DNA of 64,000 nucleotides, taken from assembly GCF_000426225.1 (NCBI RefSeq), contig NZ_AUEY01000012.1, positions 1-64,000 of the forward strand. Reading direction: 5' to 3'. Below are positions 39,409-53,413 of this stretch, piece after piece. Origin of the DNA: Desulforegula conservatrix Mb1Pa. GTDB taxonomy: Bacteria > Desulfobacterota > Desulfobacteria > Desulfobacterales > Desulforegulaceae. The translations under genes were made by a program, and so were the position numbers. Below the pieces are notes generated by a model that saw only the letters and a program-made list of their open reading frames with translations, searched no databases and was not told where the DNA came from. Each line of letters begins with the position of its first letter. Positions within the stretch are counted from its first letter, which is position 1.

Positions 39409-40479
39409 TTAGGGAGAGTCTGGATATCTGAAAATTTTTCCTTCGAAATTCCTGACTTTGATCCATCCGTTTACGGCTTCCATGACATATTCCGGAAGAA
39501 CAGGGGTTTTTCCGCCTCCCCCTGGTAGGTCTATCATATAATGGGGGACGCACATTCCTGAAACGTGGCCACGTAGAGATGCCATTATCTCGAGTCCTCT
39601 TTTCACAGGAAGTCTGAAATGGGAAGTGCCTTTGACAGGATCAGGATGGTGAAGGTAATAGGGTTTCACCCTGTTTTTCATGAGTTTCTTCATGAGTCTT
39701 CTGATTTCTTCTTCAGAATCATTGACTCCTTTCAAAAGAACACTCTGGCAGCCAAGGGCAATACCCGCATCTGCAAGTATAGAACATGACCTTTTAGCTT
39801 CTTCTGTTATTTCCGAGGAATGGTTGAACTGGATGTTTATGAATACAGGATGGAACTTCCTGATTATTCCGGCAAGTTCAGGGGTTACGCGCTGGGGGAG
39901 TACGCACGGAATTCTTGTGTGAATTCTAATTACTTCAAGATGCTTTATGGCTCTGAGGGAATAAAGAATTTCTTCGATTTTTTCGTCTTCAAGAAGAAAT
40001 GGATCTCCTCCTGAAACAATTGCTTCCGTAATTTCAGGGTTTTCTGAAATATATTCGCAGGCTTTTTCAAGATCAAAAATATTGCCGAAAGTGTTCAGGC
40101 CAACCCTTCTTTTTCTCATGCAGTGCCGACAATACATGGCACATTTATTGGAAACAAGCAGAACTACCCTGTCGGGATAACGGTGAATCAGGCCTGGGAC
40201 CGGAGACTGGATATCTTCACAGAGGGGATCAGGGGAGCTTTCAAGATCATCCAGTTCTCTCTGGTTCGGGATTGCCTGGGTAAGTGCAGGTTTGCCATTT
40301 TCTTTCATGAGCGAAAGATAGTAAGGGTTCACAAGCATGGGATAAACGCCGGAAACCCTTTCTATCTCCCTTGAATCAATATTCAGATAACCAGGAAGAT
40401 CCTCTGCCTTTTTTACTGATGCGGCCAGGATTTCCTTCCAGTCGGTCATGTTTTTTGTGTATATGCAGCCTGAAATCAT
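39409..40479 (-). CDS. KamA/EpmB-family radical SAM aminomutase
   Basis: The ATG at 40479 has AGGAG 4 bases upstream; a further ATG lies at 40449. The product is 356 residues. The radical SAM cluster motif is CAMYCRHC. The PLP lysine lies in DLPGGGGKTPV. The two Asp residues that bind the substrate's second amino group in lysine 2,3-aminomutase appear kept (HPDPVKGTSHF and IDLPGGGG). It is shorter than KamA (about 416) and near EpmB (about 342). So it is either a beta-lysine-forming aminomutase or an EF-P-modifying EpmB-type enzyme. No epmA, efp or beta-lysine acetyltransferase gene is adjacent. Confidence 0.88.
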   Translation of the reverse strand: MISGCIYTKNMTDWKEILAASVKKAEDLPGYLNIDSREIERVSGVYPMLVNPYYLSLMKENGKPALTQAIPNQRELDDLESSPDPLCEDIQSPVPGLIHRYPDRVVLLVSNKCAMYCRHCMRKRRVGLNTFGNIFDLEKACEYISENPEITEAIVSGGDPFLLEDEKIEEILYSLRAIKHLEVIRIHTRIPCVLPQRVTPELAGIIRKFHPVFINIQFNHSSEITEEAKRSCSILADAGIALGCQSVLLKGVNDSEEEIRRLMKKLMKNRVKPYYLHHPDPVKGTSHFRLPVKRGLEIMASLRGHVSGMCVPHYMIDLPGGGGKTPVLPEYVMEAVNGWIKVRNFEGKIFRYPDSP

Positions 40480-40587
40480 AATGCTCCTGAAATAAAAATC
40501 AGTCTGCTTTTTACGGTCTATTGGCGGCAAGTCAATAAAAACTTTCTTGTATGTCCGTGCATATTTGGGGCTTGCCTTGACTATCTT

Positions 40588-42261: not shown

Positions 42262-45200
42262 TTATTCCTCTGAAAGAGCCTCATGAACCTTTGCCGCAAG
42301 CTCCGAGAGCGAAAAGGGCTTGTGGATGAAGTTCAGTCCATTATCAATGGCGCCCCTGTTTGCTATGATATTTGCCGTGTACCCGGACATGAAGAGAATC
42401 TTAATGCTTGGCTGGATCTCTGATATCTTTGAGGACAGCTCCTTGCCGTTCATCTCAGGCATTATTACATCCGTAATCAGAAGATCAAACCGTCTCTTGC
42501 AGGATTCAGCTATAGTAATGGCTTCGGTCGGCGTGTTGGCCGTAAGGACTTTGTATCCTATTTTTTCAAGCATCATTTTACCGACATTGAGTATGGCCTT
42601 TTCATCTTCCACAAGAAGGATCGTTTCGCCGTGGCCCTGGATTACTTCCGTACTGCGGACGCAGGTTGTTTTGGTGCTTTCAGGAATGAATCTCGGGAAA
42701 TACAGCCTGAAGGTCGTTCCATGGCCTTCTTCGCTATGCACAGTGATTGCTCCTGAATTCTGTCTTACAATCCCGTAAACTGTTGCGAGTCCAAGCCCTG
42801 TGCCATGTCCGAATTCCTTGGTTGTGTAAAAAGGCTCGAAAATATTGCTAACCGTTTCTTTGTCCATGCCCTGTCCGTTGTCGCTGAACGTCAGGATCAC
42901 ATAGTCTCCTGGTGAGATATCAGGAAGTTTTGAACAGAATTTACTGTCAAGCTCTGCATTTTCAGTCTCTATGATTATTCTGCCGTTTCCAGATATGGCA
43001 TCCCTTGCGTTTATGGCAAGATTTGCAATTATATGATCTATCTGGGACGGGTCCATTTTGATCTGCCAGATTTTTTTGCCGGGCTTCCAGACAAGCTCGA
43101 TATCCTCGCCAATGAGACGTCCAATCATTTTGAGCATGCCTGACAGAGTATGGTTAATATCAAGAACCATGGGCAGAACATTCTGCTTGCGCGCGAATGC
43201 CATGAGCTGCTGAACCAGATCCGCAGATCTTGAGGCTGCCTTGAGTATTTCCGAAAGATCTTTCTTAAGATGCATGTCATTGCCGCTTTTATGCATGGCA
43301 AGCTCTGCAAATCCAGTTATGGCAGCCAGCATATTATTGAAATCATGGGCCACGCCTCCAGCTAGGCGACCCACAGCTTCGAGCTTCTGTGACTGGGTAA
43401 ACTGGTCATGTAGCTTGTTTCTTTCGTCAACAAGGTTAAGATGGTCTGTTATGTCTGTGCATATGGCTCCAAGTGCGTAGATATTGCCATCCTGGTCAAT
43501 AAGCGGAAATTTTATGGACAGAAAGGTGTGATCCGTACCGTCTATTCTGGCGGACTCTTCGAAAGTCAGGGCGTGTCCGAGTTCAAGCACCTGTTTTTCG
43601 TTGGCTTCGTATTCCCTGGCAAGATTATCAGGGAAAAGGTCAAATACCGTTTTTCCTATAATTTCATCCTTTATCAGTCCAAAGCGGTTTTCAGCGTATC
43701 TGTTGATTATGAGAAAACGTCCGTCAAGATCCTTGACCCAGATTATGCCGTTTGCGTTGTTGATTATGGATTTGAGAAGTTCCTCGCTTTTGCGTATGGC
43801 GTCTTCAGCCTTTTGTCTTTCTGTTATGTCAGTTATGAAGCTGTAATAATAAAGAGGCTGTCCAGAATCATCCCTTACAAGATGTACGAACAGCTCAACA
43901 GGAACAATCGATCCGTCCTTGCGTATGTACTCCTTGTTATAACGGACAGGCATTCCTGTTTCGTTCAGCTCCTTAATTTTTTCCATTTCAATCCGGAGCC
44001 ATTCGTACGCAGTCAGGTCATTAGCCCAGTTTATTGAATACAGCTCGTCCCTTGTGTAGCCTGTAAGATCCAAGAAGGCTTTGTTAAAGATTCCGAGCCT
44101 ACCGTCCGCATATCCTTGTGCAAAGGGCTGGGAGGAGTTTTCGAGCATTGACGCGAGGAATTCGGCCTGCTTCTGGCTTTCCCTCAATGCCTCCTCTGCT
44201 CTCTGGAGCGCGGAGATGTCCGTGAATGTAAGAATGGCACCTATGCATTGCCCTGATTCATTGAGAGATGGTGAAATCTGCATAAGGTAATGGTAAATAC
44301 CGTGTTTTGATTTTTCTATGATGCAGGTTCCGTAATATATCACGTATGCGATCTGTTCTCTCAGATTGGGCAGGTCAAGACGGCATGGAATTCCGGCAAT
44401 ATGCTGGCCAATATCTGTTTTCATAAGGCCAAACACACGAACTGCGAGGGCATTGAATCTTGTGATCTTCCCGTTTCTGTCGACAACAACAAGCCCCATC
44501 TGCATGGAGTCCTGGACATTTGAGAGTATGGAATTGAGATTTGCAAGTTCCATGGACTTGACGCGCAACTCGTCATTGAGTGTTGTCAGTTCCTCATTTG
44601 AAGACTGAAGTTCTTCGTTTGAAGACTGGAGTTCCTCTGAAGACGCCTGCTGTTCCTCATTTAGAGACTGAAGTTCCTCGTTCGAGGCCTCAAGGGCTTC
44701 AACCACAGCCTGGAGATGTTCCCTTGTTTCCGCCAGTTCATGTCTTAGCCTCGTTATTTCGTCAGAGGCAGCAGTTGATATTTCGGCTGATTTTTTCGTT
44801 AATATTTCTGATGATGAATCATTAACAGGATATTCATCAAAGCTTATGAGCAGAGAGTATTCATCGCGGCACTGATCAATCTGGAGCCTTCTGAGAGTTA
44901 GCTGGAGCATTACGTTCTGCCCGTCAATGCATACCGGCGTCGGCAGGCCGCAGATCTTCGAGGCTCCGTCGTGGCTCGCCCTGTAGCAGAGGGTTTTCAT
45001 TTCTCCTGAGATTTCAGGCAGGCACAGGGAAAAAAGGGAAAAATCGGCCGATCCTGTGGGCAGGGACAGATAGCGTCTGGCGTTTCCGAAAAAATGTATG
45101 ACTTCAAAGGCATTGTTCACAAGGACACTTGAAGGCGCGTATTCCGTCACCAGGATATCCCTTGTCAGCTCAATGAATGGAGAGGCTTTAATCTTTGATT

Positions 45201-46731
45201 GAATGGCAGGTCTTGCAACCGGGGCGATATACGTGCTTCTGCCCGATATCCTGACAGGGTATGAAACTACGGAAGCCTTTCTTTTAAAAAGCTTGTTTGC
45301 AAGGTCAACGCTGTCGAAAAGCCTTGACGGATAACCAGTTGATTCCGATTTCCCGAGCAGCAGATATCCGTCAGGATTAAGTGCATAATGGAAATTGCTC
45401 ATGAGCGAATCCTGGAGGGCTGGCTTCAGGTATATGAGCAGATTCCGGCAGCTTACAATATCCATCCTTATGAAGGGGGGATGACAGATTACGTCGTGAA
45501 TCGAGAAAATGCAGATGTCCCTTACGGCTTTTTTTACCTTGAAATTCCGTCCCTCATTTGTGAAGAATGCCTCCTTTCTGACAGGGTTCATGTTTTCAAG
45601 GGCGCTTGCAGGATAGACTCCTGTTCTTGCGATGGCAATGGCTTCGGCGTCAATATCGGTGGCGAAGATTCTTATGTCAAAAGAAGATACCCTGCTTCCC
45701 AGGACTTCATTCAAAAGTATGGACATTGAATAAGCTTCCTCGCCTGTGGCACACCCCGGAACCCATATTCTTATCGAGTCCCCGGGCTGCTTTTCCGAAA
45801 CGAGATCCGTCATTATTTTTTCAAGGCTCGAGAATGCTTCCGAATCCCTGAAAAATGAGGTTACCGATATAAGGAAACTGTGCTGGAGAATGGTCAATTC
45901 TTCAGGATTGTTTTTCAGATGACCGAGATAATCGGCCATTTTTTTTATGCCTATTGAAAGAATCCGTTTTTTTATCTGGCGCCTTAGGGTTGCTTCCTTA
46001 TACTGGGTCACATCCATATTTGTGGTTTTTGCAACCATTTCGACGATTTCGAGGAAAATATCATCATCCTGGGACGTGTCTTCGCAAACGCCTGATAGCG
46101 CTGCCTTTTCTCCGAGCGAGTTAAGGAAATCCCCTATTTCATAAGCATTTAGCTGGAAATCCACAAAGCCCGCCTCAATCGCTGAATCCGGCATCCCCTG
46201 GTTTATGGCTTCGTTAGGCTTTTGGGCAATCACAAGGCCCCCGGCGTTTTTTATGGCCCCAGCTCCTTTGGTCCCGTCCGACCCTGCTCCGGAGAGAATG
46301 ATCCCCACGGAATTCTCTCCACGACTCCGGGCAATGGACGCAAATAGTATGTCAACGGAAGGAACCGAATGGAATTCAGGGGAAGGCGATTTAAGCAGGA
46401 TGCGGTCATCTTCGACTTCCGCGTCATAGCCAGGAGGAACCACATATATAGTATCGGCCAGCAGAGCCATTTCATCGCTCGCGGTTATTACGGTCAGGGC
46501 CGAATATCCTGAAAGAATTTCCGCAAGCCTGCTTCCGTGGTCAGGGGACATATGGCGGGCTATTATATAAGCTGCATGTCCGCAGGATTCAATGCGGCTT
46601 ACAAGGGGGGTAAGTGCGTCAAGGCCACCGGCTGAAGCGCCTATGCCCACGATAAATTTTGCTTTCTCATGATATGGCTGGTTGCCGTCTGTCCGGTCAT
46701 TCTGTCCTTGCGTCATTTTTCCCGCAGTCAT
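42262..46731 (-). CDS. giant CheB-CheR-PAS hybrid histidine kinase with receiver
   Basis: The product is 1489 residues. The order is: CheB methylesterase (about 25-210, VGIGASAGGLDAL and ILSGAGSDGTKG), CheR methyltransferase (about 225-490, VPGCATGEEAYS and DIVSCRNLLIYL), and a coiled coil rich in NEELQSSNEEL repeats (about 640-720). Three or more PAS domains follow (about 720-1105), then HisKA with His1129 in GGVAHDFNNML, HATPase_c (SDNGQGMDKE, GTGLGLATV), and a C-terminal receiver with Asp1421 in LITDVIMPEMNG. Such CheB/CheR-PAS proteins link methylation enzymes to kinase signalling and have unclear partners. AGGAG lies 7 bases before the ATG. It is not adjacent to a receptor gene. Confidence 0.94.
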   Translation of the reverse strand: MTAGKMTQGQNDRTDGNQPYHEKAKFIVGIGASAGGLDALTPLVSRIESCGHAAYIIARHMSPDHGSRLAEILSGYSALTVITASDEMALLADTIYVVPPGYDAEVEDDRILLKSPSPEFHSVPSVDILFASIARSRGENSVGIILSGAGSDGTKGAGAIKNAGGLVIAQKPNEAINQGMPDSAIEAGFVDFQLNAYEIGDFLNSLGEKAALSGVCEDTSQDDDIFLEIVEMVAKTTNMDVTQYKEATLRRQIKKRILSIGIKKMADYLGHLKNNPEELTILQHSFLISVTSFFRDSEAFSSLEKIMTDLVSEKQPGDSIRIWVPGCATGEEAYSMSILLNEVLGSRVSSFDIRIFATDIDAEAIAIARTGVYPASALENMNPVRKEAFFTNEGRNFKVKKAVRDICIFSIHDVICHPPFIRMDIVSCRNLLIYLKPALQDSLMSNFHYALNPDGYLLLGKSESTGYPSRLFDSVDLANKLFKRKASVVSYPVRISGRSTYIAPVARPAIQSKIKASPFIELTRDILVTEYAPSSVLVNNAFEVIHFFGNARRYLSLPTGSADFSLFSLCLPEISGEMKTLCYRASHDGASKICGLPTPVCIDGQNVMLQLTLRRLQIDQCRDEYSLLISFDEYPVNDSSSEILTKKSAEISTAASDEITRLRHELAETREHLQAVVEALEASNEELQSLNEEQQASSEELQSSNEELQSSNEELTTLNDELRVKSMELANLNSILSNVQDSMQMGLVVVDRNGKITRFNALAVRVFGLMKTDIGQHIAGIPCRLDLPNLREQIAYVIYYGTCIIEKSKHGIYHYLMQISPSLNESGQCIGAILTFTDISALQRAEEALRESQKQAEFLASMLENSSQPFAQGYADGRLGIFNKAFLDLTGYTRDELYSINWANDLTAYEWLRIEMEKIKELNETGMPVRYNKEYIRKDGSIVPVELFVHLVRDDSGQPLYYYSFITDITERQKAEDAIRKSEELLKSIINNANGIIWVKDLDGRFLIINRYAENRFGLIKDEIIGKTVFDLFPDNLAREYEANEKQVLELGHALTFEESARIDGTDHTFLSIKFPLIDQDGNIYALGAICTDITDHLNLVDERNKLHDQFTQSQKLEAVGRLAGGVAHDFNNMLAAITGFAELAMHKSGNDMHLKKDLSEILKAASRSADLVQQLMAFARKQNVLPMVLDINHTLSGMLKMIGRLIGEDIELVWKPGKKIWQIKMDPSQIDHIIANLAINARDAISGNGRIIIETENAELDSKFCSKLPDISPGDYVILTFSDNGQGMDKETVSNIFEPFYTTKEFGHGTGLGLATVYGIVRQNSGAITVHSEEGHGTTFRLYFPRFIPESTKTTCVRSTEVIQGHGETILLVEDEKAILNVGKMMLEKIGYKVLTANTPTEAITIAESCKRRFDLLITDVIMPEMNGKELSSKISEIQPSIKILFMSGYTANIIANRGAIDNGLNFIHKPFSLSELAAKVHEALSEE

Positions 46732-47490: not shown

Positions 47491-49584
47491 TCATGAATCC
47501 GAGATGATCACATCATGAAGTTTTGCCGCGAAATCCCTGAGCATGAAAGGTTTATGTATAAAGCTGACGCCCTTTTTAAGAACGCCTTTATCGCTTATTA
47601 TGTCTTCAGGGTATCCTGACATGAAAAGCACTTTTATGTCAGGCCTCATTATTTTAATCTTTATAGCCATATCTCTGCCGTTCATGCCAGGCATTATTAC
47701 ATCGGTTAGAAGACAGTCAATCTGTCTTTTATCTTTCCGGCAGAATTCGATGGCCTGTTCTGGCCATGCAAATGCTATGACATCATAGCCAAGATTTGTG
47801 AGCATCAGTTTTGTCATGTTCCTCAGGGCTTCATCATCCTCGACAAGAAGTATGAGTCCTGTTCCTCCGCGTACAGGTGAGACATTTTTTTCATGTGCCG
47901 GATTTTCATACTCAGGGAAGGCCGGGATCATTATCTTGAAAGCTGTACCATGACCTTCTTCGCTGTAAGTGGTTATGAATCCTTTATTCTGGTTTACTAT
48001 GCCATAAACCGTGGCAAGGCCAAGGCCAGTTCCCTTGCTTTTTTCCTTTGTTGTGAAAAAAGGCTCGAAAATATGTGGAAGCTTATCTTTGGGTATACCC
48101 ATGCCGTCATCGCTGAACATAAGTGATACGTATGCTCCTGGTTCCATTCCTGGATATATGCGTGCAGCTTCTTTTTCAAAATCTTCCTGCAAAGTCTCAA
48201 TTCTGATTTTGCCGCCGTCCGGCATGGCGTCCCTTGCATTGACAGCAAGGTTCATTATAAGCTGGTCAAGCTGGGTTGGATCAGAATTTATCAGCCAGCC
48301 TTTGTCTCCTATCTTGATTTCCAGTTCAATGTCTTCGCCTATCATCCTTTTCAGCGTTTTAATCTTTTGGGGAAGCAGATTTCCGAGTGATATTGGCTTT
48401 GGATCTATCACCTGTTTCCTTGAAAAAGTAAGGAGCTGGGAGGTCATTTCCTTTGACCTGATGGCGGCCTGGCTGATTTCAGAAATCTCTTCAAAAAGTT
48501 CGTCCCCAGGTGCGAGGTTTTCAAGGATTAAATCGCTGTACCCTATTATTACGCTTAGCAAATTGTTGAAATCATGGGCTATGCCACCTGCGAGCCTTCC
48601 TATGGATTCCATTTTCTGGGACTGGTTCAGCTGGTTTTCAAGTTTCTGTCTTTCTTCCTGTTCCCGGATTTTATCCGAAATATCAATCAGAGTGCCGATA
48701 TAACCGCAGAAATCTTCGTTTTGATCATACTCAGGTACTCCCTCCCCAATAACCGTAATGGTCTTACCATCATGCCTCTTGATTCTGTATTGAATGTTGA
48801 AGGGTTTTTTTGACGATACAGTTTCGGCAAAATGTTTCATCAGGAATTCTGCGTCATCCTGGTGGATTATTGATTCCCATGTATCATGGTCTGCATCTTT
48901 TTGTGAAAGACCGGTTATTTCACTCCATTTGCGGTTAACAAAAACAAGCTCCCTGTCAGCCGTGAACCTGAAAATTCCAACCGGAGCGAAATCAGCGAGC
49001 GTTCTGAATCTGTGTTCACTTGCTGCAAGGTCATGGGTTCTTTCTAATATGATTTCTTCCTGGCTTTCATAAAACAGGGCGTTTCTAAGGACAAGGGCGA
49101 CCACAGGGGAGAGGGCGTCAAATGATCTGAGGATTTCCGATATTCTTTGCTTGTCGAGGAGCTGGACAATGAAAAGCATGCCCATTCTATGGTCAGCCAC
49201 AGACAAAGGTATAGCAACAATGGAATCGCACTCGATTTTATCGAGAATCTCTTTTATTTTCGGGGGCCCGGACTCCTTTGTCCAGAGGGTGCTTTTTTTG
49301 ATGTCATGGCAACAAGAGCAAAAATCTTCTAAATGATGAAGGCCGTCAAAGTTCTTATATCTTTCAGGGGTAATGCTGATCAGCCTGTGCGATTCAAGGT
49401 CTCCGTGGACATACTGAAAAAGTGCTATTATTTTTCCGCCCACAAGTTCCCTGATGGTTTCGGTAAGATATCTGCCCATCTGGCCGGGATGATCAGAATA
49501 GTTGAGAATCCCCTCAAGCATGTCCATGATCATGAATCTCGTTGCTTCGCTATTTTTTTGCAATTCTTTTGAATCATGAATCAT
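47491..49584 (-). CDS. GAF-PAS hybrid histidine kinase with receiver, coupled to corrinoid genes
   Basis: The ATG at 49584 is chosen (AGG 7 bases upstream). It overlaps the DUF1638 gene's end by 11 bases. The product is 697 residues: GAF-like domain (about 20-180, with FCSCCHDIKKS), PAS (about 190-310), HisKA with the His in GGIAHDFNNLLSV, HATPase_c (DDGMGIPKD, GTGLGLATV), and a receiver with LLTDVIMPGMNG. It has no membrane segments. Translational coupling to a corrinoid/UROD/DUF1638 set suggests that the kinase uses those proteins as sensor or is regulated with them. This link is inferred. Confidence 0.92.
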   Translation of the reverse strand: MIHDSKELQKNSEATRFMIMDMLEGILNYSDHPGQMGRYLTETIRELVGGKIIALFQYVHGDLESHRLISITPERYKNFDGLHHLEDFCSCCHDIKKSTLWTKESGPPKIKEILDKIECDSIVAIPLSVADHRMGMLFIVQLLDKQRISEILRSFDALSPVVALVLRNALFYESQEEIILERTHDLAASEHRFRTLADFAPVGIFRFTADRELVFVNRKWSEITGLSQKDADHDTWESIIHQDDAEFLMKHFAETVSSKKPFNIQYRIKRHDGKTITVIGEGVPEYDQNEDFCGYIGTLIDISDKIREQEERQKLENQLNQSQKMESIGRLAGGIAHDFNNLLSVIIGYSDLILENLAPGDELFEEISEISQAAIRSKEMTSQLLTFSRKQVIDPKPISLGNLLPQKIKTLKRMIGEDIELEIKIGDKGWLINSDPTQLDQLIMNLAVNARDAMPDGGKIRIETLQEDFEKEAARIYPGMEPGAYVSLMFSDDGMGIPKDKLPHIFEPFFTTKEKSKGTGLGLATVYGIVNQNKGFITTYSEEGHGTAFKIMIPAFPEYENPAHEKNVSPVRGGTGLILLVEDDEALRNMTKLMLTNLGYDVIAFAWPEQAIEFCRKDKRQIDCLLTDVIMPGMNGRDMAIKIKIMRPDIKVLFMSGYPEDIISDKGVLKKGVSFIHKPFMLRDFAAKLHDVIISDS

Positions 49585-50164
49585 AATCAAGCCTGTCAAT
49601 TGCTGATTTAAGGTTTTTAAGAAGCTGATCTTCAGAAACGGTCAAGATATCATAGCCAAGGCCTGTATATGCTGAAATTTCTTCAAGTATTTCAAGCGGG
49701 GTGACACGGATTCCTTCATCGATATAAACGAGACCTGTATGCATTTCCTTCATGAACGAGATCGCATTTTCCCCTTTGAGACCGAGTTCTGTTTCAAATA
49801 TGTCCCTCCAACGTATTGCCCATTCACGCAAAAGGAAAAATTTACCCTCTGACCTCATTTTTTTGTACAGGCCTGTTCCAAGGATTATTTCGCAGCAGTT
49901 TATTCCCGATGTTCTTGATGTTGACCGTCTTTTTTCAAAATCCAGCATATGGGGGCAGCAGTCTCCGTATAAAAGGACAGTCCGGTTATCTTGTCCTATC
50001 TTGTCGAACTCTTTTTCAAGCTCGGCCTCAAGTTTAGCAGGGTACATATGAAGCATGGATGGCAGATATGTAACAAGACACTTGATTTTGCCTTCATGTC
50101 TGAGCCTTTCAATTGATTCCCTGAAAATAGAGCATGAGATTATCTGCACTGTATCCTTTCCCAT
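49574..50164 (-). CDS. DUF1638 family protein
   Basis: The ATG at 50164 has AGGAGG 5 bases upstream and shares a base with the preceding gene's stop (TGATG); the ATG at 50167 is too close to the site. The product is 196 residues. Features are IISCSIFRESIE at the start, LLYGDCCPHM, SGINCCEIILG and LREWAIRWRDIFE. The paired cysteines could bind metal. DUF1638 genes are known to occur beside UROD-type and corrinoid methyltransferase genes, as here. Its biochemical role is not established. Confidence 0.85.
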   Translation of the reverse strand: MGKDTVQIISCSIFRESIERLRHEGKIKCLVTYLPSMLHMYPAKLEAELEKEFDKIGQDNRTVLLYGDCCPHMLDFEKRRSTSRTSGINCCEIILGTGLYKKMRSEGKFFLLREWAIRWRDIFETELGLKGENAISFMKEMHTGLVYIDEGIRVTPLEILEEISAYTGLGYDILTVSEDQLLKNLKSAIDRLDYDS

Positions 50165-51183
50165 CATGACCTCCTGTAATTTCTGACACAGTCGCATATG
50201 GCCATGATGTTTTCCTCTGGCGTATTCCACGGAATATCTGCTGCGGAACTCGCGAATATGAATTTTCTGTCATTTTCCCTGTCTTTCAGGATATCCATGC
50301 ATAGTTTTTGAGTATGTCCGGGTGTCTGTTCAGATAAGGTAGGGCCATCAATATTTCCCATAAGAACATATGACTCTCCTGCTTTTTTTCTTGCTTCCCT
50401 TAGCGAATCCCTTGAATCCATGGCAAAGCCTACAATATTCGGCAACTCGATAAACATGCCTATATAGGGCTCGAGTCTGTTGCCTCCGTGGTGAAATACG
50501 ATCGGCCCCTTTATCTGGCTGAATGACGATTTAAGGAAAGGGATGATAAAATCCGCTATTTTTTTTGAAGGGATTATTTCAGGGTTTACGAACATGCCTG
50601 GAAAAGCAATGATCTTTGCTCCGTCTTCAAGAAGGGCATTCCCGAATCTTATGAAAAAATCGCAGCATTTTTCCATTATCTGACCGGCTGTTTTTTCATC
50701 AAAAACAAGGCATTCCATCCACTGGTCTATTCCCATGACAAGCGGGGGAATGTCCGCAGGGCAAGGAATGGCTCCGACAACAGGCACCTCGTTCATGTAT
50801 TTTGCAGCCATGATCCTCACGGAGTCCCGTATAAATGCCAATTGGGGATTGGAATCCACATCGGGCAGATCCATTGACATGAATTCCGGGGCGTTTTTTA
50901 CGGCAGGGTTTTTAATATTCGGAGCATAATTGCTGAAATATTTAACTTCGCTTCCAAAGGCTTCACCGATTGATGTCAGGGCAAAGGGGCTGAAAAGAAG
51001 ATCTGGCCGGAATTTTTCGCGTACAGCGAACTGGCCTTCAGCATATGATTTAGGTCTTGAAAAATAAATATCAGTTGGGCAGGAGGTCAGCCTGGCTCCG
51101 TAAAGACTGAGGAGAAGAGTAAACGCAGGCCTGTCAGTTTCTTCTCCTGTAACAGTTCTCATTACTCTCTCAAGGCTGTTCAT
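50164..51183 (-). CDS. uroporphyrinogen decarboxylase-family (MtbA/MtaA-like) protein without the usual zinc cysteines
   Basis: The ATG at 51183 has AGGAGG 7 bases upstream. The product is 339 residues with the UROD TIM-barrel pattern (NSLERVMRTVTGEETDRP, ending TPEENIMAICDCVR). Methylcobamide:CoM methyltransferases bind Zn through His-x-Cys and a later Cys. Here the first site reads FHHGGN and the second ASSAADIPWNTP, so both cysteines seem absent. It may bind the corrinoid protein or a porphyrin-like ligand without zinc-thiol chemistry, or have another substrate. It lies between the corrinoid-protein gene and the DUF1638 gene. Confidence 0.85.
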   Translation of the reverse strand: MNSLERVMRTVTGEETDRPAFTLLLSLYGARLTSCPTDIYFSRPKSYAEGQFAVREKFRPDLLFSPFALTSIGEAFGSEVKYFSNYAPNIKNPAVKNAPEFMSMDLPDVDSNPQLAFIRDSVRIMAAKYMNEVPVVGAIPCPADIPPLVMGIDQWMECLVFDEKTAGQIMEKCCDFFIRFGNALLEDGAKIIAFPGMFVNPEIIPSKKIADFIIPFLKSSFSQIKGPIVFHHGGNRLEPYIGMFIELPNIVGFAMDSRDSLREARKKAGESYVLMGNIDGPTLSEQTPGHTQKLCMDILKDRENDRKFIFASSAADIPWNTPEENIMAICDCVRNYRRS

Positions 51184-51211
51184 GGTTTTACCTCCTTTTT
51201 GATTCATCTGT

Positions 51212-51889
51212 TCAGGCTTCAATTAGTGAGACCGCCCTGGCCCATAAACCCTCAAACAGGGCCGGCGCCTGCAATGCGCTCTGGCACGTGCCGTCTCCTG
51301 CCACTTCATCCACAAGTTCCTTTCTCAGTTTGAATACAGCTCCGCCAACAGCAATCTGGATTTTTCCTGAAAGTCCCCTGTTATCGAGTTCTGCCCTGAG
51401 CTTTTGAATGTTTTTTGCCGTGGAATACATCATAGCCGAAGCTCCTATGATTCTGGCCCCATTTTCCAGTGCCTTGTCCACGAAGATATCAGCCGGAACA
51501 TCGACTCCCAGATCTATTACTTTCCAGCCTGCTATCTGGAGAAAAGATGAAACCATTTTGCGGCCAAGCGGATGATAGTCGTCTTCAATATTTCCTAAAA
51601 CTACAGGCCCCTTGATTATTTTTTGATCATTTGCCGTCATCCTTTTTGCCTCAAGTGCTTTTGCAAAAACATCTTCTGCAATTTTTGCCGCGACATAACC
51701 CTGGGAAAGAGAAATATCTCCGGTTACATCCCACATTCTTCCTATTTCTTCCAGAACACCTGAAAGAAGATCGGTTATGGCGCTTTCGTAACCTTTGGCA
51801 GCGGCCCACGAATCAATTATAAGATTGGCATATGTGCGATCAGCTTCAAGAATAGCTTTTAGAAGGTTTTTCCCTGGGTCGGTGTCCAT
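51212..51889 (-). CDS. corrinoid (B12-binding) protein, MtbC/MetH-cap type
   Basis: The ATG at 51889 has GGAGG 4 bases upstream; the longer frame to 51991 would translate a repeat element. The product is 225 residues. An N-terminal helical cap (about 1-90) is followed by a Rossmann-type B12 domain with the His-on motif D-x-H-x-x-G in IEDDYHPLGRK, then GVDVPADIF, GASAMMYST and GGAVF. It would carry a methylcobamide shuttled by the UROD-like protein encoded 28 bases downstream. There is no MttB- or MtaB-type methyltransferase gene in the window, so the methyl donor is unknown or the protein serves sensing. Confidence 0.9.
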   Translation of the reverse strand: MDTDPGKNLLKAILEADRTYANLIIDSWAAAKGYESAITDLLSGVLEEIGRMWDVTGDISLSQGYVAAKIAEDVFAKALEAKRMTANDQKIIKGPVVLGNIEDDYHPLGRKMVSSFLQIAGWKVIDLGVDVPADIFVDKALENGARIIGASAMMYSTAKNIQKLRAELDNRGLSGKIQIAVGGAVFKLRKELVDEVAGDGTCQSALQAPALFEGLWARAVSLIEA

Positions 51890-52460: not shown

Positions 52461-52581
52461 GTTTTGATGTGCTTTCTAAGGAAGCTGCGCACGTTGAACC
52501 GGAGTTTATTATCTTATAAATGAGGATTCGAGTACGAAGCTGACGTAGCTAAAGCTCAAAAAGACAATTTTTAGAGGCCGC
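52447..52581 (-). mobile_element. element family D, copy 2 (inverted, overlapping the DUF169 gene end)
   Basis: Read on the minus strand it begins GGCGGCCTCTAAAAATTGTC and continues with TCGTACTCGAATCCTCATTT as in 4381-4533. Its first bases include the stop codon and last three codons of the DUF169 gene. Confidence 0.65.
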
Positions 52582-53413
52582 CTGATATTGAACCAAGCTT
52601 TTCCTCAACAAGCTCCTTCCATAATGGTCTTTCAAGAAAAGAGCCTTCAACATTGGATTCCATTTCTTCAAACATTTTGTATGGAACCGTGAAAGTCATG
52701 AGACCTTCTCCAAGCTGGCTTCTGATATATATCCTTGCCGAGATATCTGTCAGGCCGACAACGGCCCTCGGATTTTCAGATTCGGCTTCCCTGTAAGGAT
52801 AAATACCCAATGTCTGGCATCCGGCTGCATATGGGATGATAACGCTCTCGTTGCTCTTTCTCGCATAGTTGGCAAGTATAACAAGAGCCGATAACTGGTC
52901 GGCATCGGTAAAGAAGATGACCGATTTTGGTTTTTCTTTTTCAGTATCAACAAGCTCAATAGATTTGAAAATCACATATTTTGCAGGGATTTCGGTTATG
53001 GGAAGATTTCGCACAAAATCGGCAACATGGTCAGGAGACTTCAGATAGCCTTCTCCATTCATGTAGTTATCATGGAATTCATCCTGCATGTAGTGTTTCA
53101 GTTCTGTTCCGTTTTCCTTGCCTTTAGGCCAGTTTTTATTGCCTGTTGACAGAAAATACCTGAAGCATTCCTCGCCTCCAATGAAATTCTTGTACTGATT
53201 CCCAAATCCAAGTCCAACTCCTGCGCCAATGCATCCGAAGGTATTGCGATCACAGCAGGATATTTTGCCTTTTGCAGCATTTGAGACCAGCCACATGGTG
53301 CAGCCCCATTTGCCCTTTTTGAACTGGACTGCATCTTCTGGTTTTTCATCAGACCAGAGAAGGCATACTGGCTGGTATTTTAATCCGGTTGCTTCAGATA
53401 TTTTACTTTTCAA
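52571..53413 (-). CDS. DUF169 family protein
   Basis: The product is 280 residues from a TTG start that overlaps the stop of the preceding lipoprotein gene (TTGA). Family features include the early PVCLLWSDEKPED, the Cys-rich ISCCDRNTFGCIGAGVGLGF, and the later VIIPYAAGCQTLGIYP and GLMTFTVPYKMFEEME. DUF169 proteins are frequent in anaerobes and archaea with no proven function. The final three residues (Gly-Gly-Leu) and stop codon lie inside a dispersed repeat, so the C-terminus may have been reset by the insertion. Confidence 0.85.
   Translation of the reverse strand: MKSKISEATGLKYQPVCLLWSDEKPEDAVQFKKGKWGCTMWLVSNAAKGKISCCDRNTFGCIGAGVGLGFGNQYKNFIGGEECFRYFLSTGNKNWPKGKENGTELKHYMQDEFHDNYMNGEGYLKSPDHVADFVRNLPITEIPAKYVIFKSIELVDTEKEKPKSVIFFTDADQLSALVILANYARKSNESVIIPYAAGCQTLGIYPYREAESENPRAVVGLTDISARIYIRSQLGEGLMTFTVPYKMFEEMESNVEGSFLERPLWKELVEEKLGSISGGL

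Follow-up and report, generated by a model that had tools for sequence, protein, structure and literature searches.

The window analysed here, the first 64,000 nucleotides of contig NZ_AUEY01000012.1 of Desulforegula conservatrix Mb1Pa (forward strand, RefSeq assembly GCF_000426225.1), carries four tightly packed minus-strand genes that encode, in this order, a corrinoid protein, a protein of the uroporphyrinogen decarboxylase (UROD) superfamily, a DUF1638 protein and a hybrid histidine kinase. Sequence comparison indicates that the first three very probably make up the input side of a signalling module rather than a catabolic methyltransferase, a conclusion that follows from the linkage of the locus, the specificity of its GAF domain, several gene fusions and a bare genome context. 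Wherever the module was found complete, the trio stands in fixed order before a dedicated GAF domain with interchangeable outputs, mostly hybrid histidine kinases and in some cases diguanylate cyclases. An old machinery for methyl transfer thus seems to serve these cells as a sensor. The locus comprises the following elements:

51212-51889, minus strand: corrinoid protein of 225 amino acids, cap plus B12-binding domain (PF02310, 7.1e-20; cap match weak, PF02607, 3e-4)
51563-51580, minus strand: D-x-H-x-x-G corrinoid ligand motif (D104 Y H106 P L G109; 35 orthologues)
50164-51183, minus strand: UROD/MtaA-type protein of 339 amino acids without the zinc cysteines (PF01208, 8.9e-52)
50482-50493, minus strand: H231-H-G-G, zinc His retained and Gly in place of the first zinc Cys (alignment)
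50236-50250, minus strand: S-S-A-A-D316, Ala in place of the second zinc Cys, adjoining the invariant D316 (alignment)
49574-50167, minus strand: DUF1638 protein of 197 amino acids (PF07796, 3.9e-22)
47491-49584, minus strand: soluble hybrid histidine kinase, GAF-PAS-HisKA-HATPase-REC (Pfam and motifs; GAF by structural model)
49012-49569, minus strand: module-specific GAF domain (AlphaFold, predicted local distance difference test (pLDDT) 88; Foldseek E 8e-7)
48679-49011, minus strand: PAS domain (PF08447, 3.8e-16; PF00989)
47920-48600, minus strand: HisKA and HATPase_c kinase core (PF00512, 7e-8; PF02518, 4e-20)
47521-47853, minus strand: receiver domain (PF00072, 2.3e-16)

The corrinoid and UROD genes are separated by a gap of +28 bases, UROD and DUF1638 share an ATGA overlap of 4 bases (1 with the second ATG), and the DUF1638 and kinase genes overlap by 11 bases, the kinase starting with an ATG at 49584 and ending with its stop at 47491. 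Clear AGGAGG ribosome sites precede UROD and DUF1638. An earlier note, made from the letters of the window alone, had described four coupled genes at this place, closed by a soluble GAF-PAS kinase; the coordinates, the gap and both overlaps were all reproduced, and the kinase was confirmed by its Pfam domains and its modelled GAF domain.

Six aligned UROD orthologues served as the query for a scan of 84,980 species genomes of bacteria and archaea, which yielded 46 loci. Since all the scan patterns lie within UROD, this search was blind to the neighbouring genes. The counts given here cover 47 distinct loci, the window and five loci of the same order among them, and rely on a six-frame profile search; a locus is called testable when its contig is long enough to show the neighbour gene in question. 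Recurrence of the arrangement at so many loci goes far beyond what chance would produce. According to record titles or taxonomy, the module is spread over about 14 phyla (Thermodesulfobacteriota, Myxococcota, Nitrospirota, Zixiibacteriota, Wallbacteria, Bacteroidota, Ignavibacteriota, Chloroflexota, Planctomycetota, Verrucomicrobiota, Pseudomonadota, Spirochaetota, Aminicenantes and Aegiribacteria), and its carriers include Desulfopila aestuarii DSM 18488 (L066) and Malonomonas rubra DSM 5091 (L091). The corrinoid gene lies directly upstream of UROD at every testable locus (43/43), DUF1638 directly downstream at 45 of the 47 loci (it is absent from L036 and L079), and the same GAF subfamily follows at all 45 testable loci. 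A histidine kinase forms part of that GAF protein in 38 of 41 testable cases, L087 being outside this number because its contig ends early. The three exceptions are a GAF-GGDEF protein (L057), a GAF-PAS-PAS protein whose kinase is encoded apart, in a following gene (L061), and a short protein with GAF only (L036); the GAF domain stands alone in L036/L090. Apparent loci devoid of the corrinoid gene in GC-rich contigs turned out in the six-frame search to be an artefact of antisense open reading frames. The survey was also a search for trios lacking a signalling partner, and no testable locus had the trio without the signalling GAF protein. As a separate observation, a chemoreceptor (Cache-HAMP-MCP) is encoded at 10949-13399 of L036, downstream of a corrinoid-UROD-GAF set that has neither kinase nor DUF1638.

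This GAF subfamily is specific to the module. Among the 291 genomes of the order that were searched, only six encode it, exactly those that possess a UROD of the same clade as the window protein (clade A), and at the same loci; the probability of such a coincidence by chance is ~1e-12. By comparison, none of 20 other UROD regions of relatives has DUF1638 together with this GAF domain or a kinase in the downstream order; many of these control regions do have a corrinoid protein adjoining UROD. Clustering of the neighbouring genes revealed no shared regulated pathway and no conserved metabolic neighbour.

Two further UROD clades have comparable arrangements. Clade B, a second zinc-less clade in the order (THMASGR ... 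SDNHGEIP, 60-69% identity to one member), likewise lies behind a corrinoid protein, and its DUF1638 is fused to a HisKA/HATPase kinase in eight loci (L039, L040, L042, L043, L044, L045, L046 and L048) and to GGDEF in another one (L041). Clade C (L050, L061 and L063) has YYCGG where clade A has HHGG, with the gene order UROD-DUF1638-PAS-kinase in L050 and L063. Each of the three clades forms one group in a quick tree, in which a branch with 95% support in the Shimodaira-Hasegawa-like approximate likelihood ratio test (SH-aLRT) parts clades A, B and C together from MtaA and the controls, with limited control sampling. Within the module, UROD and DUF1638 form a single chain in M. rubra, DUF1638, GAF, PAS and GGDEF do so in L087, and GAF and kinase share one chain at most loci. 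These fusions suggest the physical order UROD, DUF1638, GAF, output. A third version of the module is seen at 7275-10863 of L050, where the corrinoid domain is fused behind a weak metallo-beta-lactamase-like domain and is followed by the clade-C UROD, DUF1638 and the PAS kinase.

The trio might nevertheless belong to everyday corrinoid metabolism and adjoin the two-component regulator of that system by chance, given that UROD, corrinoid proteins and DUF1638 occur in metabolic settings too. We consider this very unlikely in view of the fixed GAF partner, exclusive to the module loci, the replacement of the kinase by GGDEF outputs, the kinases and cyclases to which DUF1638 is directly fused, the 20 control regions devoid of the arrangement and the lack of any conserved metabolic neighbour. 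In its strictly catabolic form, an operon with a kinase as chance neighbour, it was rejected on the GAF linkage, the output swapping and the controls.

The genome context is consistent with the signalling reading. The window genome (4.47 Mb, 96% complete) has one UROD and one DUF1638, and we found in it neither a RACo/RamA-type activase (PF14574) nor a member of the MttB family. No MttB, MtaB or MtgB partner gene is present at the locus, to which the search for MtaB was confined. No catabolic corrinoid system that the corrinoid protein could serve is visible in the genome. Besides this protein, ten of the 11 B12-binding matches are located in frames of at least 444 amino acids, one of them MetH-sized, so that it is the only stand-alone corrinoid protein of the genome. 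Because these large B12-binding proteins make cobalamin supply matter to the cell, the apo or holo state of the corrinoid protein could simply report that supply. Such an availability sensor seems improbable to us, since it would require neither UROD nor DUF1638, and the clustered neighbourhoods contain no conserved genes for cobalamin synthesis or transport.

The UROD-type protein has an MtaA-related fold, and its sole sequence match in the PDB is MtaA of Methanosarcina mazei (4ay7, 3.4e-11). It falls short of the MtaA/CmuA NCBIfam cut-offs (TIGR01463, 90.7 versus 235.4 bits; NF040654, 80.6 versus 400), and identity with HemE was ruled out (TIGR01464, 27.2 bits versus an equivalog cut-off of 302.95). 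In the alignment with 4ay7, the zinc site of MtaA, H-x-C ... C, corresponds to H231-H-G ... A in the window protein. The histidine is found in all 47 clade-A URODs, window included; both cysteines are found in none of these 47 and in none of 14 clade-B sequences, versus 15 of 18 control URODs from relatives, plus MtaA. L097 is the only clade-A UROD to have the first cysteine (HHC), and the second is absent there. The loss of both zinc cysteines, proposed in the earlier note, is therefore confirmed in the window (Gly and Ala) and holds throughout the clade apart from the single Cys of L097. Zinc ligands at shifted positions were rejected as well: the alignments of the 47 clade-A and 14 clade-B sequences contain no Cys pair near either position. 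The motif E-x14-E-x20-H, the zinc motif of OdmB/VdmB-type O-demethylases, is also absent from all clade-A and clade-B URODs. At the same time, the pocket residues Y28, W155, H231, R265 and D316 are conserved, in proteins that retain ~35-52% identity across phyla. Several UROD frames of relatives (G009, G027, G032, G002, G006, G037 and G030) contain one in-frame TGA, possibly encoding selenocysteine.

That no substrate-specific methyltransferase is present, as had been claimed, held for the locus and, as far as MttB is concerned, for the entire genome; the UROD protein, though, could itself be one. It would then act as a substrate-specific methyltransferase (MT1, O-demethylase-like) and the level of methyl-corrinoid would be the signal, which makes this a sub-case of the signalling reading and no departure from it. 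The UROD superfamily does include corrinoid O-, S- and halogen-demethylases (PMC10418091), and both the intact corrinoid ligand triad described below and the pocket kept across phyla would suit such catalysis. On the other hand, the O-demethylase zinc motif is missing, the neighbourhoods contain no conserved gene for an MtrH-like protein or a thiol methyltransferase that could act as methyl acceptor, and a RACo-type activase was not found in the genome, so that we advance it only tentatively. With the same reserve it may be proposed, in its full form, that the zinc-less UROD takes a methyl group off a signal molecule and hands it to the corrinoid protein, and that the resulting methyl-cobalt is read via DUF1638 and GAF to drive kinases and cyclases in ~14 phyla.

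The corrinoid protein resembles MtaC, MtbC and MttC in combining a cap and a B12-binding domain with the D-x-H-x-x-G motif, and its closest solved relative is the trimethylamine (TMA) corrinoid protein 7xcn. D104, H106, G109 and S151 are invariant across 35 orthologues; D104, H106 and S151 make up the complete D-H-S triad of the corrinoid ligand, and the motif is intact in the window as first noticed. The binding residues are thus in place, and corrinoid binding may control the output. The domain is also weakly related to the CarH family (NF052513, 5e-9), which is what a CarH-like B12 photoreceptor, signalling to the kinase by light-driven Co-C cleavage, would have in its favour. Many of the hosts are, however, groundwater, subsurface or sediment anaerobes according to the record titles, and the methyltransferase-like partners would be left unexplained, which makes light sensing extremely improbable.

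The DUF1638 protein scores 79.3 bits against a Pfam gathering cut-off of 27 (PF07796). Among the DUF1638 proteins of the module, C12, H40, C70 and C91 are invariant (28-35 orthologues), and N90, E115 and W116 show complete or almost complete conservation; the three cysteines are also retained in most other DUF1638 proteins examined, and in clade B the histidine is mostly exchanged for a cysteine at an adjacent position. An AlphaFold model (pLDDT 95) places C12 at the end of strand 1 and C70 in the loop after strand 3, with H40 and C91 within or starting helices that follow strands. These modelled positions would allow a single site at an edge of the sheet, and the three cysteines and the histidine probably constitute a metal or iron-sulphur (Fe-S) site. 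Structural alignment with VIA-align gave a best Z of 7.3 (PurR, PrpR N-domain and similar), the usual level in the absence of a clear match, and was not used. Mutant fitness in Phaeobacter links DUF1638 with a split methionine synthase and a RamA-like protein (PMC5764234), and a 2025 paper predicts that it serves the reductive recharging of cobalamin (PMC12478193). Outside the module, DUF1638 lies within open frames of ~900-990 amino acids in L004-L007, L009, L010, L014, L016 and L017; in L004, next to a UROD gene, it forms the N-terminal part of a fusion with an ATPase of hydantoinase/oxoprolinase type, and this fusion may reactivate corrinoid as a single chain. The corrinoid-linked fitness, the recharging prediction and this ATPase fusion together indicate that DUF1638 deals with corrinoid proteins.

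The same features would fit a redox or oxygen sensor in which the corrinoid cobalt (Co I/II/III) and the DUF1638 metal site report the redox state, UROD acting as a mere clamp. The retained cysteines and histidine (or, in clade B, the adjacent cysteine), the implication of DUF1638 in recharging cobalamin (PMC12478193) and the mostly anaerobic lineages of the hosts speak for it, but a clamp would have no need of the strongly conserved UROD pocket, and we regard this version as rather unlikely.

On the output side, the kinase has Pfam matches to PAS, HisKA, HATPase_c and Response_reg, and it retains both the H-box GGIAHDFNN and the receiver aspartate motif LLTDVIMPG; together with the HATPase motifs, these identify it in sequence as a hybrid histidine kinase. 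The arrangement of kinase core and receiver is CckA-like (NF046020). Its first 190 residues have no Pfam match in the window protein, and orthologues match GAF weakly; in the model of this region, however, the top Foldseek matches are solved GAF domains (probability 1.0), which supports the GAF assignment.

Taken together, the preference of the earlier note for a signalling over a catabolic role is strongly supported: it survived both attempts at refutation, the alignment for displaced ligands and the survey for unpartnered trios, and the variable outputs and the DUF1638 fusions to kinases and GGDEF lend it independent support. The further idea of that note, a kinase that reads the state or methylation of cobalamin, is a putative mechanism. 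We propose that the UROD barrel, devoid of the zinc site with which MtaA activates thiols, uses its retained pocket to bind a small ligand, for which a methylated compound or other carrier of methyl groups is most likely. Binding of this ligand would set the methylation or redox state of the corrinoid protein, and DUF1638, through its putative metal or Fe-S site, would read or reset the state of the cobalt. The change would then pass to the GAF domain and alter kinase activity, in the window through a His-Asp relay via the receiver domain. As a whole, this sequence of events seems to us somewhat more probable than not. Several points weigh against it. Nearly all the loci come from metagenome-assembled genomes; L079 and L036/L090 carry the module without DUF1638, which is therefore not always needed; the fold search with DUF1638 gave no clear relative (no Foldseek match at E < 0.001); and the UROD superfamily also contains methyltransferases that hold zinc by other ligands (OdmB/VdmB), so that catalysis by UROD may still occur.

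If the proposal is right, genes annotated as uroporphyrinogen decarboxylase, methyltransferase corrinoid protein and DUF1638 would in this context represent a sensory class and not a metabolic one, DUF1638 would be a transducer between corrinoid and output, and a B12-dependent input would be added to two-component and cyclic di-GMP signalling across many uncultivated anaerobes.

Other genes surround the module in the window. Just downstream, 42262-46731 (minus strand) encodes a CheB-CheR-PAS-HisKA-REC hybrid protein of 1489 amino acids, and farther on, 39412-40530 (minus strand) encodes a lysine 2,3-aminomutase-like radical SAM protein. Upstream, across a long intergenic region, lies a gene for a DUF169 protein (52574-53413, minus strand).

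The module is best filed as two-component or cyclic di-GMP signalling with a new multi-protein corrinoid input. We found no description of corrinoid, UROD and DUF1638 proteins with kinases in the open-access literature. MtaA and MtbA, of the UROD superfamily, have the same fold and a corrinoid partner of MtaC/MtbC/MttC type, whereas clade A never has both zinc cysteines, forms a separate clade and is always followed by a signalling protein. In CarH, in AerR with CrtJ and in the cobalamin-binding GGDEF protein 8j2y, a B12-binding domain likewise steers a regulatory output; there, however, it is part of the regulator or binds it directly, and no UROD or DUF1638 partner is reported in the literature covered. 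Soluble hybrid kinases of CckA type share the kinase core and receiver domain, the module kinase differing by its own N-terminal GAF subfamily.

Kinases associated with corrinoid methyltransferases are also known from Methanosarcina, namely MsmS and RdmS. MsmS is heme-based. The association appears in the title of Fiege 2019, as cited in PMC11784639, and PMC11784639 describes RdmS as thiol-redox sensing and both kinases as lacking an H-box. Unlike in these systems, the input proteins of the module are themselves methyltransferase-like and are fused to outputs. Type I mlp clusters combine, as here, a non-methanogen MtaA-homologous UROD with a corrinoid protein, but they contain several Mlps and a RACE activase and belong to sulfur and methionine metabolism; in the account of these clusters DUF1638 is unmentioned and the mentions of kinases are metabolic (PMC10418091). 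Finally, in Phaeobacter (PGA1_c13340) and Ruegeria (SPO2162), in the context of split methionine synthase and glycine betaine demethylation, DUF1638 likewise adjoins a corrinoid protein and is needed along with the corrinoid methyltransferase in mutant fitness data (PMC5764234, PMC12478193). Those DUF1638 proteins co-occur with a RamA-like activase and are metabolic, whereas in the module kinases and diguanylate cyclases are coupled to DUF1638 or fused with it.

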